Positions 7,629 to 13,927 of a DNA stretch of 64,000 nucleotides are shown here, piece after piece (within the stretch, counting starts at the first letter, position 1; the number at the start of each line of letters is the position of its first letter). This stretch comes from Thermococcus alcaliphilus (GTDB lineage: Archaea > Methanobacteriota_B > Thermococci > Thermococcales > Thermococcaceae), in NCBI RefSeq assembly GCF_024054535.1, contig NZ_JAMXLV010000020.1, positions 62,001 through 126,000 of the forward strand. Reading direction: 5' to 3'. A program made the position numbers and the translations under genes. The notes below the pieces were generated by a model that saw only the letters and a list, made by a program, of their open reading frames with translations, was not told where the DNA came from and searched no databases.

Positions 7629-9746
7629 ATGAAGAAGCAGTTGGCAACACTGTTAGTGATAAGCGTTTTGGTTTTTGCAGTAGTTGCAAGTGGGTGTATT
7701 GGTGGTGGAGGAACAACAACCCAAACATCAAGCCCCACTCAAACAACACAAACTACAACCACAAGCTCCCCAACCCAAACAACCACTCAACCAACAGGGC
7801 CAACTTATGAAGTTATCGAAACTGACAAGAGTGTCATATTGGTTGGTCCTGAAGGCTCTCAAATGCCAGCTTCCTTGCCAAGTGGGAAGAAAATAATTAA
7901 AGTAACCTACGTCGTGGATGAAGCTAATACTCCATCCGTCAAGGAATTGATGGAGCAAGGTCAAGGATTTGGTGCTATTAACCCCGCGTTCTTTAGAAAT
8001 ACCACTGTTGATGCCCTCGTAATTGCTGCAAGAAGAGAGACTAACCCTGAAATAAGAACAGAACTCTTTAAGGCACTCTATATACTCGGTAACAGACTTG
8101 TGCCTGAGGTGATCCTTGGACAAAACAGACAACTACGTGTCTACTGGGAATGGGTCAAGGGAAGATACTATCACCCAACATTCCCAGAGAGATACGATCT
8201 CATTTGGGAAGATCCAAACGCCCCGAGTGTGCCCATTGGAATTGGTGACTACAAGAACGATGCTCAAACCTACGTTATAGGTACAATCGGATGGCCAGAG
8301 AGCTTTGACCCAGCATGGACATACGAGACCTTTGGATGGGAAATCTGGCACGAGATTGGTGACACCCTTGTCACATATTGGAAAGAAGAAACCGAAAAGG
8401 TAACACCAGATTTGGCCGTTGCATGGGCACACAACGAAGATGGTACCGAATGGTATTTTGTTATCAGAGGAGGAGTAAAAGCTTATGACCCATGGAACGA
8501 CAAAACATACCCAATTGATGCTACAGACGTTGCCTTTACATTCTGGCGTGTCCAAAGATTAGGGCACAGCGTTTCATGGATGGTCTCAAGCTTTATGGAC
8601 GTTAGCAAGTCACAAGCTCTAACTGAAAAAGAATTCGAAGATGTTATCAAGAGCAAGAAGCTTATTGCAGAATACAATGGAAAAACTGTGGAAGTTAAGT
8701 CTCTCCAAGACTTGCTAGACGCCTTTGGATACAGCGGAGAAACCGCCGGTGTCTTCAAGCTTGTTCTACCAGCACCATACGCAGCAGTTCTTGGTATATT
8801 GGCAGATCCATTCCTCTCAGTAGTTCCAATGGAGTACCTCCTTGGTGACAAGTATGAAGAGGCTCTAAAAGCCTCAAACAACGGAAAGAACCCCGACGCT
8901 TGGGAGCCATATGTACAAGAAGGTGAGCAAGACCCAACCCACCAGCTCATGCACAAGCAACCGGTTGGAACAGGTCCCTTCTATGTTAAGGAGTACAAAG
9001 AAAACGCCTACATCGTGCTTGAGCACAACCCATATTACTGGGACAAGAGCATAAAGCCCGGACACCAGAGGGTTATCTACGTCATAAACAATGATGCTGT
9101 TTCAAGAATCCAACTCTTCCAGACAGGAACAGTCGATACGGTTGCTACTCCACCAGAGAGAGTAAATGATGTCAAAGGCCTCGAATTCCAAGGATTCAAG
9201 TCAATTGTTCAAACTGACATTCTCCAACCAATTCTGACATTCATAGTCTTCAACACCCAGAAAGAGCCATTCAACAATCCAAAGGTCAGACAAGCTTTAG
9301 CCTACGCAATTCCATACGACCAGATAGCCCAAGTAGTTTACTCCGGACTGCTCGAGAGGAACTGGGGTCCAATTCCAAAACCATGGCCAGGATACACAGA
9401 GTATGGAATTATCAAGTACAACTACAATATAAACAAGGCACAACAACTCTTGCAAGAAGCTGGAATCAATCCAAGTGACTATAAGATTGAGCTTATCTAC
9501 AACGCTGGAAACAGCGCTCGTGAGAAGATCATGACACTATTGCAAAACATTTGGAGCCAGCTTGGATTCCAAGTTACGGTAGGAAGCTACGAGTGGCCAG
9601 TCTACTTGTCCAAGACATCGAAGGGAGACTACGATGTCTATGTGGTAGGATGGGTACCAGATTACCTAGACTCGGACAACTGGGTTGGACCATTCCTCTA
9701 CGGTGCTACAGAATTCAGCAAGATTGAAATTTCTGTTGAGTCTTGA
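7629..9746 (+). CDS. Peptide ABC transporter lipoprotein-type binding protein, apparently circularly permuted
   Basis: The 705-residue extracellular solute-binding protein (family 5) is the first gene of a five-gene Dpp/Opp-like operon. A signal peptide ends in VVASGC (Cys23, lipid-anchor site), followed by a Thr/Gln/Ser/Pro linker to about residue 57. The usual family 5 N-terminal lobe (IGTIGWPESFDPAWTYETF, then LVTYWKEETEKVTPDLAVAW) begins only near residue 217. The usual C-terminal helix and strands (VDALVIAARRETNPEIRTEL, then VYWEWVKGRYYHPTF) instead lie near residues 127-185. The chain stops just after GWVPDYLDSDNWVGPF, where normal members have about 100 more residues. Neighbouring permeases and ATPases are standard. 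Confidence 0.85.
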   Translation: MKKQLATLLVISVLVFAVVASGCIGGGGTTTQTSSPTQTTQTTTTSSPTQTTTQPTGPTYEVIETDKSVILVGPEGSQMPASLPSGKKIIKVTYVVDEANTPSVKELMEQGQGFGAINPAFFRNTTVDALVIAARRETNPEIRTELFKALYILGNRLVPEVILGQNRQLRVYWEWVKGRYYHPTFPERYDLIWEDPNAPSVPIGIGDYKNDAQTYVIGTIGWPESFDPAWTYETFGWEIWHEIGDTLVTYWKEETEKVTPDLAVAWAHNEDGTEWYFVIRGGVKAYDPWNDKTYPIDATDVAFTFWRVQRLGHSVSWMVSSFMDVSKSQALTEKEFEDVIKSKKLIAEYNGKTVEVKSLQDLLDAFGYSGETAGVFKLVLPAPYAAVLGILADPFLSVVPMEYLLGDKYEEALKASNNGKNPDAWEPYVQEGEQDPTHQLMHKQPVGTGPFYVKEYKENAYIVLEHNPYYWDKSIKPGHQRVIYVINNDAVSRIQLFQTGTVDTVATPPERVNDVKGLEFQGFKSIVQTDILQPILTFIVFNTQKEPFNNPKVRQALAYAIPYDQIAQVVYSGLLERNWGPIPKPWPGYTEYGIIKYNYNINKAQQLLQEAGINPSDYKIELIYNAGNSAREKIMTLLQNIWSQLGFQVTVGSYEWPVYLSKTSKGDYDVYVVGWVPDYLDSDNWVGPFLYGATEFSKIEISVES

Positions 9747-9805: not shown

Positions 9806-10807
9806 ATGGCTGAACTCAAAAAATTCCTAATAAGAAGGCTCCTAACATTCATCCCCACAATAATAGGAGTGACATTGATAGTCTTTCTGATAGCTTATGT
9901 TATTCCAGCCGACCCGGCTAAAGCTTGGGCTGGTGGAGAAAAAGCGTCTCCGGAAGCAGTTGAGAGAATAAAAGAAAGATATCACCTAAACGATCCGTGG
10001 TATGCCCAGTATATCTTCCTGGTAAAAGGGATTGCAACAAACACCCTTATAGACCCAAGAACCTCAAACCCCGTTTTGGATGATATTAGAGATAGATTTC
10101 CCGTCACTTTTCAACTGGCTATAATAGCGTTTGTATTCACACTCATCATTGGAATTCCTCTTGGGCTGATTTCCGCCCTAAAGAGGAATAGTATTGTGGA
10201 TACGATAGTTAGAATTTTTGCCTTAATTGGAGTTTCAACTCCAGTGTTCTGGCTAGGGTATCTTCTGATTTTCGTGTTCTTTGTGAAGTTTAGAATAACG
10301 AACTTGGCCGGAGTTCCTCCTACTCCCGCCACCCAAATAACTCATGTTCCGATAATAGACGCCCTTCTTACGGGGGATTTTACGTTATTTAAGCAACACC
10401 TAGCAAGGTTCTGGCTTCCCGGCTTTGTGCTTGGTTTTATGGGGACTGGAGTATTAGCAAGATTTGTTAGAAACTCCTTCCTTGAGGCCATCAGCGGAGA
10501 TTACATCGAATTTCTAAAAGCAAAAGGTGTTCCCAAGCTCAGGATTTACAGACATGCCCTCAAGAATGCTTTGGTACCAATAGTCACAGTATTAGGCCTT
10601 CAATTTGGAGGCCTCCTTGGTGGAACACCTATAACAGAGACGGTATTTGCACTCCCAGGAATGGGAAGTTATGCGATCCAGTCAATCCAGAATCTTGACT
10701 TCCCAGTTATAGTTGCAATAACGTTCATTTACGCCTTAATCTACGTTACTGCCAATCTAGTGGTCGATATTCTGTACGCAGTAATAGACCCAAGGGTTAG
10801 GTATTAG
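9806..10807 (+). CDS. dppB: Peptide ABC transporter permease, DppB type
   Basis: A 333-residue inner-membrane permease of the BPD_transp_1 family with six predicted membrane spans. It starts with the DppB hallmark FLIRRLLTFIPTIIGVTLIVF. The cytoplasmic EAA loop is ARFVRNSFLEAISGDYIEFLKAKGVPKLRIYRHALKNAL in substance, and the C terminus is YAVIDPRVRY, typical of DppB. ATG 9806 follows AAAGGAGG. It forms the channel with the DppC-type permease encoded 11 bases downstream. Confidence 0.92.
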   Translation: MAELKKFLIRRLLTFIPTIIGVTLIVFLIAYVIPADPAKAWAGGEKASPEAVERIKERYHLNDPWYAQYIFLVKGIATNTLIDPRTSNPVLDDIRDRFPVTFQLAIIAFVFTLIIGIPLGLISALKRNSIVDTIVRIFALIGVSTPVFWLGYLLIFVFFVKFRITNLAGVPPTPATQITHVPIIDALLTGDFTLFKQHLARFWLPGFVLGFMGTGVLARFVRNSFLEAISGDYIEFLKAKGVPKLRIYRHALKNALVPIVTVLGLQFGGLLGGTPITETVFALPGMGSYAIQSIQNLDFPVIVAITFIYALIYVTANLVVDILYAVIDPRVRY

Positions 10808-10818
10808 AGGTGAGAAAA

Positions 10819-11973
10819 ATGCAGGAAGAGTATAAAAAGAACATATTTGACAAAATCGCTGACAAGCTTGTCTATGGAATTGCATCATTTATAAGCATCT
10901 TTAAGAAAGACTGGAAAGTAAAGAATAAATCCAAAATGGAAGAATGGAGATTAATGCTTTATGCCCTCAACCGCTCTCCACCTGCTTTAATAGGCGTCTT
11001 CCTAGTTATAATTTTTATCTTGTTGGGAGTTTTCGGACCAAGGATGGCAACTTGGAGATACAATTTCTTCCCCTCACTTTATACAATGAATTTTACACAA
11101 GTAGTGCTTGCACCACCCGGAAGTAAGGCATACTTGGAGTTTGCAAATACAACAATAACCTACCCATTAGGAGCTGATCACTTCGGAAGAGACCTCCTAA
11201 GTTTGATCCTGAGCGGTGCGAGAACGTCTTTCGTAGTCTCCATAATAGTTATTTCTCTCGGAGTGCCTTTAGGCATAGTCCTAGGGCTGATAGCAGGCTA
11301 CAAAGGAGGTAAAGTTGATGAGCTCTTAATGCGTATAACTGACATGTTCCTAGCATTTCCAGCGTTAATACTAGCGATAGCACTATCAGCAGTACTTCCC
11401 GAAAGAATACAAGGGTTTATAGAAAGCCATGCACTTCTGCAGAAGTTCGTTCTCTGGATATTTGCCCTTGATACTAGGGAAGCTGGAAACTTGGGCAGAT
11501 TGCTTTCGGTGATACTTGCAATGATTATCGTATGGTGGCCAGTTTATGCAAGAATAACTAGAGGTTCGACTCTCACCGAAAAAGAGAAGCTATATATAGA
11601 AGCCGCCAGAGCTATTGGACTAAGCTCATGGACAATAATGTTCAAGCACATCTTGCCGAATATCATTGGGCCTATACTAGTATACATAACCCTTGATTTT
11701 GGTAGTGTGGTTTTAATGGAAGCAGGTCTGAGCTTTTTAGGGCTGGGTGCGACACCCCCAATTGCCGATTGGGGTAGAATAGTCTATGATGGAGCACAGT
11801 ACTTCCCAAAAGCCTGGTGGTTAGTATTCTATCCAGGTCTCATAGTCATGCTGGTTGCCCTGGGATGGAACCTCCTCGGAGACGGTCTCAGAGATGTCCT
11901 AGATCCAAAGACAAGAAGAAGCATAGAGTTCAAAGTTAAGAAGAGCAAGAAGGAGGGAGAGGAAAATGCCTGA
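10819..11973 (+). CDS. dppC: Peptide ABC transporter permease, DppC type
   Basis: This 384-residue permease pairs with DppB. Family marks are YPLGADHFGRDLLSLILSGA, ITDMFLAFPALILAIALSAV, the EAA loop EKEKLYIEAARAIGLSSWTI and the C-terminal GDGLRDVLDPKTRR. The N terminus is about 50 residues longer than in bacterial DppC, and a long loop between the first two spans faces outside. ATG 10819 is preceded by GAGGTG; a GTG at 10810 lies in the Shine-Dalgarno. Its last 8 bases overlap the next gene. Confidence 0.92.
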   Translation: MQEEYKKNIFDKIADKLVYGIASFISIFKKDWKVKNKSKMEEWRLMLYALNRSPPALIGVFLVIIFILLGVFGPRMATWRYNFFPSLYTMNFTQVVLAPPGSKAYLEFANTTITYPLGADHFGRDLLSLILSGARTSFVVSIIVISLGVPLGIVLGLIAGYKGGKVDELLMRITDMFLAFPALILAIALSAVLPERIQGFIESHALLQKFVLWIFALDTREAGNLGRLLSVILAMIIVWWPVYARITRGSTLTEKEKLYIEAARAIGLSSWTIMFKHILPNIIGPILVYITLDFGSVVLMEAGLSFLGLGATPPIADWGRIVYDGAQYFPKAWWLVFYPGLIVMLVALGWNLLGDGLRDVLDPKTRRSIEFKVKKSKKEGEENA

Positions 11974-12943
11974 ACCAATACTCCAAGTTAGAAATTTAAC
12001 CGTCCACTTTTACACCTACGCCGGAATTGTAAAGGCCATTGAAAACGTATCCTTTGATGTCTATAAGGGAGAGACTTTTGCACTCGTAGGGGAAACCGGA
12101 TGTGGGAAAAGCGTCACATCCAGAGCGTTAACCCAACTAATAGAAAGCCCTGGCAGAATAGTAAATGGAGAAGTTATTTATCACTCGGAAAAAGGACCTA
12201 TCGATCTGCTAAAGCTCAGTGAAGAAGAAATAAGGGAAATAAGAGGAAATGAAATAGCATACATCTTCCAAGACCCTCACGCTTCTCTTGACCCGCTATA
12301 CACCGTGGGCTACCAAATAGCAGAAGCTATGGAGGTTCATGGGAAAGTTAAAAACATAAAAGAGGGAATTAAAAAAGCCGTGGACATATTAAGAGCAGTT
12401 TTAATCCCGGATCCAGAAAAAAGAGTCCACAACTATCCTCACGAATTAAGTGGAGGAATGAAGCAGAGAGTCGTTATTGGAACCGGAATTGCAAACAATC
12501 CAAAGATCCTCATTGCAGATGAGCCTACAACAGCCTTAGACGTTACGGTTCAAGCCCAAATCCTAGATTTGATAAATAGTCTAAAAGAGAAGTACCACGC
12601 GACGGTTATACTAATTACTCACAACTTGGGTGTTGTTGCCGAAACTGCTGACAGAGTAGCAGTGATGTATGCAGGTAAAATAGTGGAGATAGGGAGCGTA
12701 GAGCAAATTTTCAAAAATCCTCTCCATCCCTACACCAAAGGGCTATTGAAAGCCGTTCCCAACCCAATGACAAAAATTGAACGCCTAGAAGCTATTCCCG
12801 GTACAGTGCCTAACTTGATAACTCCCCCAGGAGGCTGCAGATTCCATCCGAGATGCCCATACGCCATGGAAGTATGCAAACAGAAGGTTCCCGAGCTAGT
12901 TGAAATAGAAGATGGACACTTTGTTGCATGCCACCTTTACTGA
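11966..12943 (+). CDS. dppD: Peptide ABC transporter ATPase, DppD type
   Basis: A 325-residue ABC ATPase. Walker A is GETGCGKSVT, signature LSGGMKQRVVIG, Walker B ILIADEPTTALDV, and the switch histidine lies in LITHNLG. The C-terminal oligopeptide/dipeptide domain contains GCRFHPRCPYAMEVCKQKVP with four cysteines. In some DppD/OppD proteins this type of segment binds an Fe-S cluster. The GGAGGGAGAGG Shine-Dalgarno lies inside the end of dppC. Confidence 0.93.
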   Translation: MPEPILQVRNLTVHFYTYAGIVKAIENVSFDVYKGETFALVGETGCGKSVTSRALTQLIESPGRIVNGEVIYHSEKGPIDLLKLSEEEIREIRGNEIAYIFQDPHASLDPLYTVGYQIAEAMEVHGKVKNIKEGIKKAVDILRAVLIPDPEKRVHNYPHELSGGMKQRVVIGTGIANNPKILIADEPTTALDVTVQAQILDLINSLKEKYHATVILITHNLGVVAETADRVAVMYAGKIVEIGSVEQIFKNPLHPYTKGLLKAVPNPMTKIERLEAIPGTVPNLITPPGGCRFHPRCPYAMEVCKQKVPELVEIEDGHFVACHLY

Positions 12944-12952
12944 GGTGAGAAC

Positions 12953-13927
12953 ATGGAGAAAGTACTTGAGGTTAAACATCTGAAGAAATACTTCCCAGTT
13001 AAAGGGTTATTCTTCACCAAAGGGTACGTAAAAGCAGTTGATGACATAAGCTTTGAAATATATAAAGGAGAAACCTTTGGTTTGGTAGGAGAAAGCGGAT
13101 GTGGGAAAACAACCACCGGAAGAACAATCCTCCGCCTTATAGAACCAACGAGTGGTGAAATTATCTTCAAGGGGAAAAACGTAATGGAGCTCAAGGGAGA
13201 TGAACTCAAGCAATTCCGCAGAGAAGCCCAAATAATGTTTCAGGATCCCTATTCTTCCCTAAATCCGAGACAAACGGTATTCGAGATTATAATGGAACCC
13301 GTAAGATTTCACGGGATTCACGTAGATGACCCAGAAGACTTCGTAATAAAGTTGCTTGAAAGCGTAGGTCTTAACGAAATGCATCTCTATCGTTATCCTC
13401 ACGAGTTTAGCGGTGGGCAGAGACAGAGAATCGCATTAGCAAGGTTGCTGGCTCTAAGACCAGAATTCATCGTGTTGGATGAGCCCACTTCAGCACTTGA
13501 TGTATCAGTACAAGCAAATATCCTAAACACCTTAAAAGACCTTCAGCAGGAGTTCGGCTTTACGTATCTCTTCATCTCCCACGATCTTGGTGTAGTCAAG
13601 TATATGAGCCACAGAATGGGAGTGATGTACCTTGGAAAGCTCGTGGAAGTTGGTCCAGCAGAAAGAATATTTGAAAACCCATTACACCCATATACTCAGT
13701 TTTTACTCTCCGCAATCCCAGTTCCCGACCCTGAGCTTGCTAGGGAACTAAAAGCAAAGAGACAAAAGATTACTGGCGAGCCGCCAAGTCCAATAAACCC
13801 ACCCAGTGGATGTCGCTTCCACCCAAGATGCCCATATGCAAAGGAGATTTGTAAGAAGGAAGAACCCCCATTAGTGGAAGTGGAGCAAGATCACTACGTG
13901 GCTTGCTGGCTGTACTCCAAGGCATAG
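12953..13927 (+). CDS. dppF: Peptide ABC transporter ATPase, DppF type
   Basis: The second ATPase has 324 residues: Walker A GESGCGKTTTG, signature FSGGQRQRIALARLLA, Walker B FIVLDEPTSALDV, switch HDLG, and again a C-terminal cysteine segment GCRFHPRCPYAKEICKKEEP. It should pair with DppD below the DppBC channel. ATG 12953 follows GAGGTGAGAAC. Its 3' end overlaps the convergent gene by 34 bases, and this closes the transporter operon. Confidence 0.93.
   Translation: MEKVLEVKHLKKYFPVKGLFFTKGYVKAVDDISFEIYKGETFGLVGESGCGKTTTGRTILRLIEPTSGEIIFKGKNVMELKGDELKQFRREAQIMFQDPYSSLNPRQTVFEIIMEPVRFHGIHVDDPEDFVIKLLESVGLNEMHLYRYPHEFSGGQRQRIALARLLALRPEFIVLDEPTSALDVSVQANILNTLKDLQQEFGFTYLFISHDLGVVKYMSHRMGVMYLGKLVEVGPAERIFENPLHPYTQFLLSAIPVPDPELARELKAKRQKITGEPPSPINPPSGCRFHPRCPYAKEICKKEEPPLVEVEQDHYVACWLYSKA

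Follow-up and report, generated by a model that had tools for sequence, protein, structure and literature searches.

The window, a 64,000-nucleotide stretch of the Thermococcus alcaliphilus contig NZ_JAMXLV010000020.1, carries a dppA-like gene (positions 7629..9746, + strand) whose 705-aa product belongs to solute-binding protein (SBP) family 5 but does not follow the order of parts of that family. A first-pass annotation of the letters had proposed that the C-terminal piece of the protein has moved to its front. We asked what this protein is and how its order of parts arose. The best explanation, which we hold with high confidence, is that a Dpp-type peptide importer uses this protein as its solute-binding protein, and that it is a natural circular permutant of SBP family 5 in which the cut point and the membrane anchor have been moved repeatedly.

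A binding protein with rotated parts

The ATG start of the gene is preceded by a ggaggtg-like ribosome site. The genes for two permeases, dppB (9806..10807, +) and dppC (10810..11973, +), and for two ATPases, dppD (11966..12943, +) and dppF (12953..13927, +), follow directly downstream and are conserved as neighbours. The product begins with a signal peptide (7629..7697, +), recognised in the sequence by the lipobox ASGC at residues 20-23, with Cys23 as the lipid anchor, followed by a linker rich in Gly, Thr, Ser and Pro (residues 24-59; 7698..7805, +). This lipobox is common to the Thermococcaceae orthologues of both layouts described below.

Behind the linker we distinguish four parts. An extra piece whose place in the family is between B and C (residues 60-116; 7806..7976, +) is followed by segment C, the family C-terminus now at the front (residues 117-212; 7977..8264, +), by segment A, the N-terminal part of the family (residues 213-475; 8265..9053, +), and by segment B, the family middle and lobe II core, which is now the C-terminus (residues 476-705; 9054..9743, +). 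The order behind the N-terminal lipid anchor is thus C-A-B. Segment C ends in a conserved junction of about 20 residues (DPNAPSVPIGIGDYKND, residues 195-211), which now fuses the former C-terminus to the former N-terminus.

Membership of the family is clear from the sequence (Pfam SBP_bac_5, PF00496, 241.5 bits against a cut-off of 32.4), yet the order of parts differs from the A-B-C of the family and the match covers residues 257-693 only. The NCBIfam DppA equivalog NF043070 scores 121.5 bits, below its cut-off of 1005, and in a scan of the protein against NCBIfam no model reached its own cut-off. The N-terminal family segment, which had been placed from about residue 217, is present and starts at about residue 213. 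The chain had been said to end right after GWVPDYLDSDNW (residues 674-685); in fact it runs 20 residues further. Because the orthologues stop at the same place, this is a natural chain end and not a frameshift.

The front piece is the displaced family C-terminus

Segment searches and profiles give evidence for the displacement. With segment C of L036, a C-A-B relative that is 39% identical overall to the window protein, phmmer finds the C-termini of canonical archaeal paralogues of 519-540 aa (E 4e-7 to 5e-4). Likewise, an HMM of segment C built from permuted proteins only matches the C-termini of canonical proteins, in most at E 3e-10 to 1e-8 and always after B. These profiles show a circular permutation relative to the canonical paralogues, and the order of segments was assigned by HMM and phmmer at all loci. 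The C-terminus-like stretch that had been noticed at residues 127-185 is therefore real, and extends over about 117-212.

A permutation-aware alignment had been suggested in the first-pass annotation. The profiles reveal the homology of C, but the rotated window protein, run by phmmer against PDB chains, gives matches no longer than those of the unrotated one. We attribute this to a single sequence being too far from bacterial C-termini, hence the use of profiles.

Could residues 60-212 instead be an unrelated extra domain, with the C lobe missing? Residues 60-116 are absent from the short canonical members, and phmmer of the single window protein against the PDB finds segment C at 1.1 bits, which is noise. 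Nonetheless, this reading is extremely improbable as a whole, and for residues 117-212 it is refuted both by the C profile, with its matches down to E 3e-10, and by orthologues at the same locus in which C directly follows B in the ordinary, canonical order. One correction concerns the first part: residues of about 60-116 (VIETDKSVILVGPEG...SGKKIIKVTYVVDE...GFGA) are an extra piece, which sits between B and C in the orthologues of order B-C-A and at whose start the C-A-B proteins are cut. AlphaFold2 predicts beta strands in this piece at 61-64, 68-74 and 88-96, with a local pLDDT of about 78-87.

Two rotations of one protein at one locus

We surveyed 94 Thermococcaceae genomes in all six frames and found the gene in 64. 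It is an intact C-A-B gene in 56 of these and an intact B-C-A gene in 3, and it is broken or cut by contig ends in the remaining 5. The survey of orthologues that had been suggested thus finds the order of the window protein in 56 of the 59 intact Thermococcaceae copies and another order in three. All three B-C-A genomes belong to one genus, which we take to be Palaeococcus and of which they are the only members surveyed; one of them is a complete single chromosome. Their proteins have the same lipobox and linker, followed by the equivalent of residues 476-704 and then by that of residues 60-475, with 79-83% identity to the window protein. Both termini of the B-C-A orthologues, in Palaeococcus as in Thermoproteota, correspond to a loop at residues 472-480 (9042..9068, +). 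For the relatives L021-L023 and L034, residues 1-47, 60-475 and 476-705 of the window protein are all matched at about 80%, in rotated order.

The Palaeococcus gene and the window gene lie in the same 11-gene block, which includes ferredoxin-NADP reductase, m1A58 methyltransferase, SRP19, dppABCDF and hel308. One protein thus occurs at a single locus in two rotations. Such same-locus orthologues, with B and C in ordinary order, are the strongest proof that the front piece is a displaced C-terminal piece. The early reading of the sequence caught half of the story: it overlooked the repeated changes of layout among relatives.

An artefact of assembly or annotation, that is, a rearranged or broken gene, is practically out of the question. 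Some copies are indeed broken (in genomes G012, G064 and G077), but 56 intact C-A-B copies from independent genomes refute this explanation, and the B-C-A form is intact in three genomes including the complete chromosome. The broken copies (G012:C1:841293, G064:C1:884863 and G077:C1:410991) contain stops or a change of frame and may reflect recent loss or sequencing errors. Genome G026 has two C-A-B copies, C1:1818140 and C1:1860542-1357, the second of which spans the origin of the record.

Layouts across archaea

The same rotations are found outside Thermococcaceae. Among 398 genomes of the phylum Thermoproteota, 39 have a match, with 21 B-C-A proteins, 10 C-A-B proteins with the Thermococcales cut and 7 C-A-B proteins whose cut lies about 25 residues further on, behind ...WLVIVGEARG. 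In the class of genome G118 (81 genomes), 8 have C-A-B and 8 have B-C-A, and genome G153 carries both. Neither B-C-A nor C-A-B is confined to one clade. A fourth layout is cut at residue 522/523 (9192..9197, +) and is represented by L035, from a short Guaymas MAG contig. The MAG of L035 is labelled Thermoplasmata, and its dppA, on a contig of 4.9 kb (QMTU01000079.1), is Thermococcales-like (64-70%), which would fit misbinning of the contig or gene transfer. There are thus at least four distinct cut points: a pair close to the extra piece of lobe II, another in the lobe I loop between A and B, and one near the hinge at 522/523.

The termini of the B-C-A proteins are nearly identical between Palaeococcus and Thermoproteota (..NPYYWN..LW..YG[FY]KP* and ..HK.V[IL]Y.I.N). 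The fused C-A junction, with its DPNAP-like motif, is common to the layouts. This suggests a single closure of the ring, after which only the position of the opening changed.

How often the layout changed

Circular permutations in nature are usually old and happened once. For the trees, all sequences were rotated into A-B-C before inference. The permuted proteins group together, separate from the canonical proteins, and within this group the layouts are interleaved, so that 5-6 layout changes are needed. A single clade is rejected by the AU test both for B-C-A (p = 1.6e-7 and 1.4e-4 in two tests) and for C-A-B with the Thermococcales cut (p = 1.7e-44). A tree with the main Thermococcaceae C-A-B proteins together and Palaeococcus outside is not rejected (p = 0.063). 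Given this alternative and the long branches in part of the tree, the exact number and direction of the changes are unsure.

With relatives cut elsewhere, one of them at the same locus, the protein appears to have been re-cut and re-tethered several times within an otherwise unchanged importer. We consider it probable that these proteins form a natural series of repeated permutations in place, with at least four cut points and at least five interchanges among archaea, once between orthologues of about 80% identity at one syntenic locus, the tether being moved each time while DppBCDF stayed.

It is also possible, though we find it distinctly less convincing, that each layout arose once, long ago, and was scattered by gene transfer, by loss of ancient paralogues and by gene conversion between layouts. 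The identical B-C-A cut in Palaeococcus and Thermoproteota would be expected under such a history, as would the presence of both layouts in G153. The unbroken B-C junction of Palaeococcus also looks old, being closer to the junction of Thermoproteota B-C-A proteins than a re-made joint would be. Against a single origin of each layout, the body segments of the Palaeococcus B-C-A proteins are nearest to Thermococcus C-A-B in most windows, the Palaeococcus gene occupies the Thermococcaceae locus, and the AU tests reject the single clades; even this history would call for at least four different cut points. Within the series of repeated permutations, we favour B-C-A as the older layout among Thermococcaceae, Palaeococcus included, from which C-A-B would have been derived on more than one occasion.

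Each new layout would have arisen when the gene was duplicated in tandem and in frame, one copy then losing its front and the other its back. The module of signal, anchor and linker would be retained at the 5′ end each time, and the net effect would be a membrane tether that hops around a ring-closed fold. No tandem-duplication intermediate was seen among the relatives examined. In the copies checked among L001-L151 the anchor is N-terminal whatever the rotation. Thermococcales copies have the lipobox Cys; most of the Thermoproteota copies checked begin with a hydrophobic helix, which is often accompanied by a T/P-rich linker.

Fold, tether and ligand

We take lobe I of DppA to comprise residues 1-260 and 479-507, and lobe II residues 261-478. 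In alignments to 1dpp, the C-A-B cut falls after about DppA residue 420 and segment C matches about 441-504, while the B-C-A cut falls near 206-208 and that of L035 near 253-254. On these alignments and lobe limits, the tether is predicted to leave from lobe II in the window protein, from lobe I in the B-C-A and canonical proteins, and from near the hinge in L035. The suggestion that the anchor has moved to the other lobe is thereby supported, since C-A-B proteins are cut within the stretch that aligns with lobe II.

AlphaFold2 models of the window protein (pLDDT 47.5 with 5 sequences; pLDDT 57.2 and pTM 0.38 with 8) are too low in confidence to judge topology. With the better model, Foldseek finds SBP5 proteins by local similarity, with DppA at E 9e-14 but a TM of 0.2. 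Segment C is modelled, at low confidence, as two helices and then strands (125-136, 140-157, 161-163 and 179-181), as expected there. With model confidence so low, it is from the sequence that we infer that the two-lobed fold is kept after permutation. The protein would close on a peptide and hand it to DppBC, powered by DppDF. Because dppBCDF remain beside dppA in every layout, the effect of the permutation on docking to DppBC seems small or tolerated.

The dipeptide ends are presumably held in DppA by Asp408 and Arg355. Both residues are mutated in 8z1z, according to the title of that structure. Asp678 of the window protein (9660..9662, +) aligns with Asp408 (Asp436 with the signal peptide) and is invariant in five C-A-B proteins; Asn625 stands at the position of Arg355, so the ligand may be something other than a plain dipeptide. 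In P. pacificus, PAP_00150-00170 is annotated as a dipeptide/oligopeptide transporter, and this peptide importer is reported to be down-regulated with sulfur (PMC6981617), so the operon is transcribed. By position and gene number, we take it to be the orthologous dppABCDF operon.

Accordingly, the window protein is likely to bind peptides, and may differ from a strict dipeptide binder. A more radical change of ligand, in which the protein binds a sugar or metal complex, is no peptide carrier for DppBCDF, and was permuted along with the change, seems unlikely to us. Nickel and sugar binders do exist within SBP family 5, and the loss of the Arg355 equivalent is compatible with such a change; the invariant Asp678, the position of the gene in a dppABCDF operon and the annotation in P. 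pacificus speak for a peptide.

Relation to known binding proteins

The closest precedent is TpMglB-2 (Tp0684) of Treponema pallidum, a crystallised, naturally permuted "Type Ic / Cluster Bc" glucose-binding protein (PMC4990184). It is likewise a membrane-tethered binding protein of an ABC importer that is permuted in nature with ligand binding kept, and its authors also propose a link to anchoring. In contrast, TpMglB-2 is a Type I, cluster B sugar binder whose N-terminal strands went to the C-terminus, in one permuted topology (PMC4990184). The best relatives of the window protein are peptide/nickel SBPs of family 5 and not proteins of the cluster B sugar fold. Permuted binding proteins as such are thus already known; what is unusual here is that the permutation appears to be repeated and in place.

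Compared with E. coli DppA and OppA (SBP_bac_5, SBP cluster C; 1dpp, 8z1y), segments A and B match at E of about 1e-33, the Asp aligned with Asp408 is shared and, as for DppA, the operon contains dppBCDF. The window protein differs in being C-A-B instead of A-B-C, in its extra piece of about 57 residues, in being an archaeal lipoprotein tethered by lobe II, and in the Arg355 position. Canonical SBP5 paralogues of the same genomes (for example G000:C18, 527 aa, L095) belong to the same family and have C at their C-terminus, but are A-B-C proteins in a separate clade of the tree. We found no solved structure of a close relative in the PDB, and no report of a permuted SBP5 or archaeal DppA in the full-text literature searched, a body of text that leaves most subscription journals outside.

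As close orthologues in one operon differ in cut point, a single hyperthermophile family offers natural permutants in which to compare folding, thermal stability, ligand binding and tether position. It thereby becomes testable whether it matters to the importer which lobe of its binding protein is tied to the membrane. The locus also shows that annotation and structure comparison which depend on order miss the displaced lobe, as the partial Pfam match illustrates.

Further relatives

No relatives of the window protein were found in a scan of viral contigs. In bacterial plasmid records, the matches listed were A-B only, none covering 80% of the query, and none had a permuted form. Five large archaeal SBP5-like proteins (759-895 aa; L112 at G016:C1:1844682, L118, L119, L120 and L113), several with a C-terminal transmembrane anchor, seem to be B-C-A: residues 48-386 match the B+C profile (98.9% probability), and A-like motifs, each weak, occur near the C-terminus only. 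A 616-aa SBP5 protein (L110, G118:C13:9783-11348), with B at 68-276, A at 397-568 and a terminal transmembrane helix, appears to represent another B-C-A family, one anchored at the C-terminus. Finally, a 1297-aa frame (L074 / L141, G149:C11) joins a glycoside-hydrolase-like stretch to a B-C-A protein across a run of N, and is thus a scaffold gap and not a fusion.
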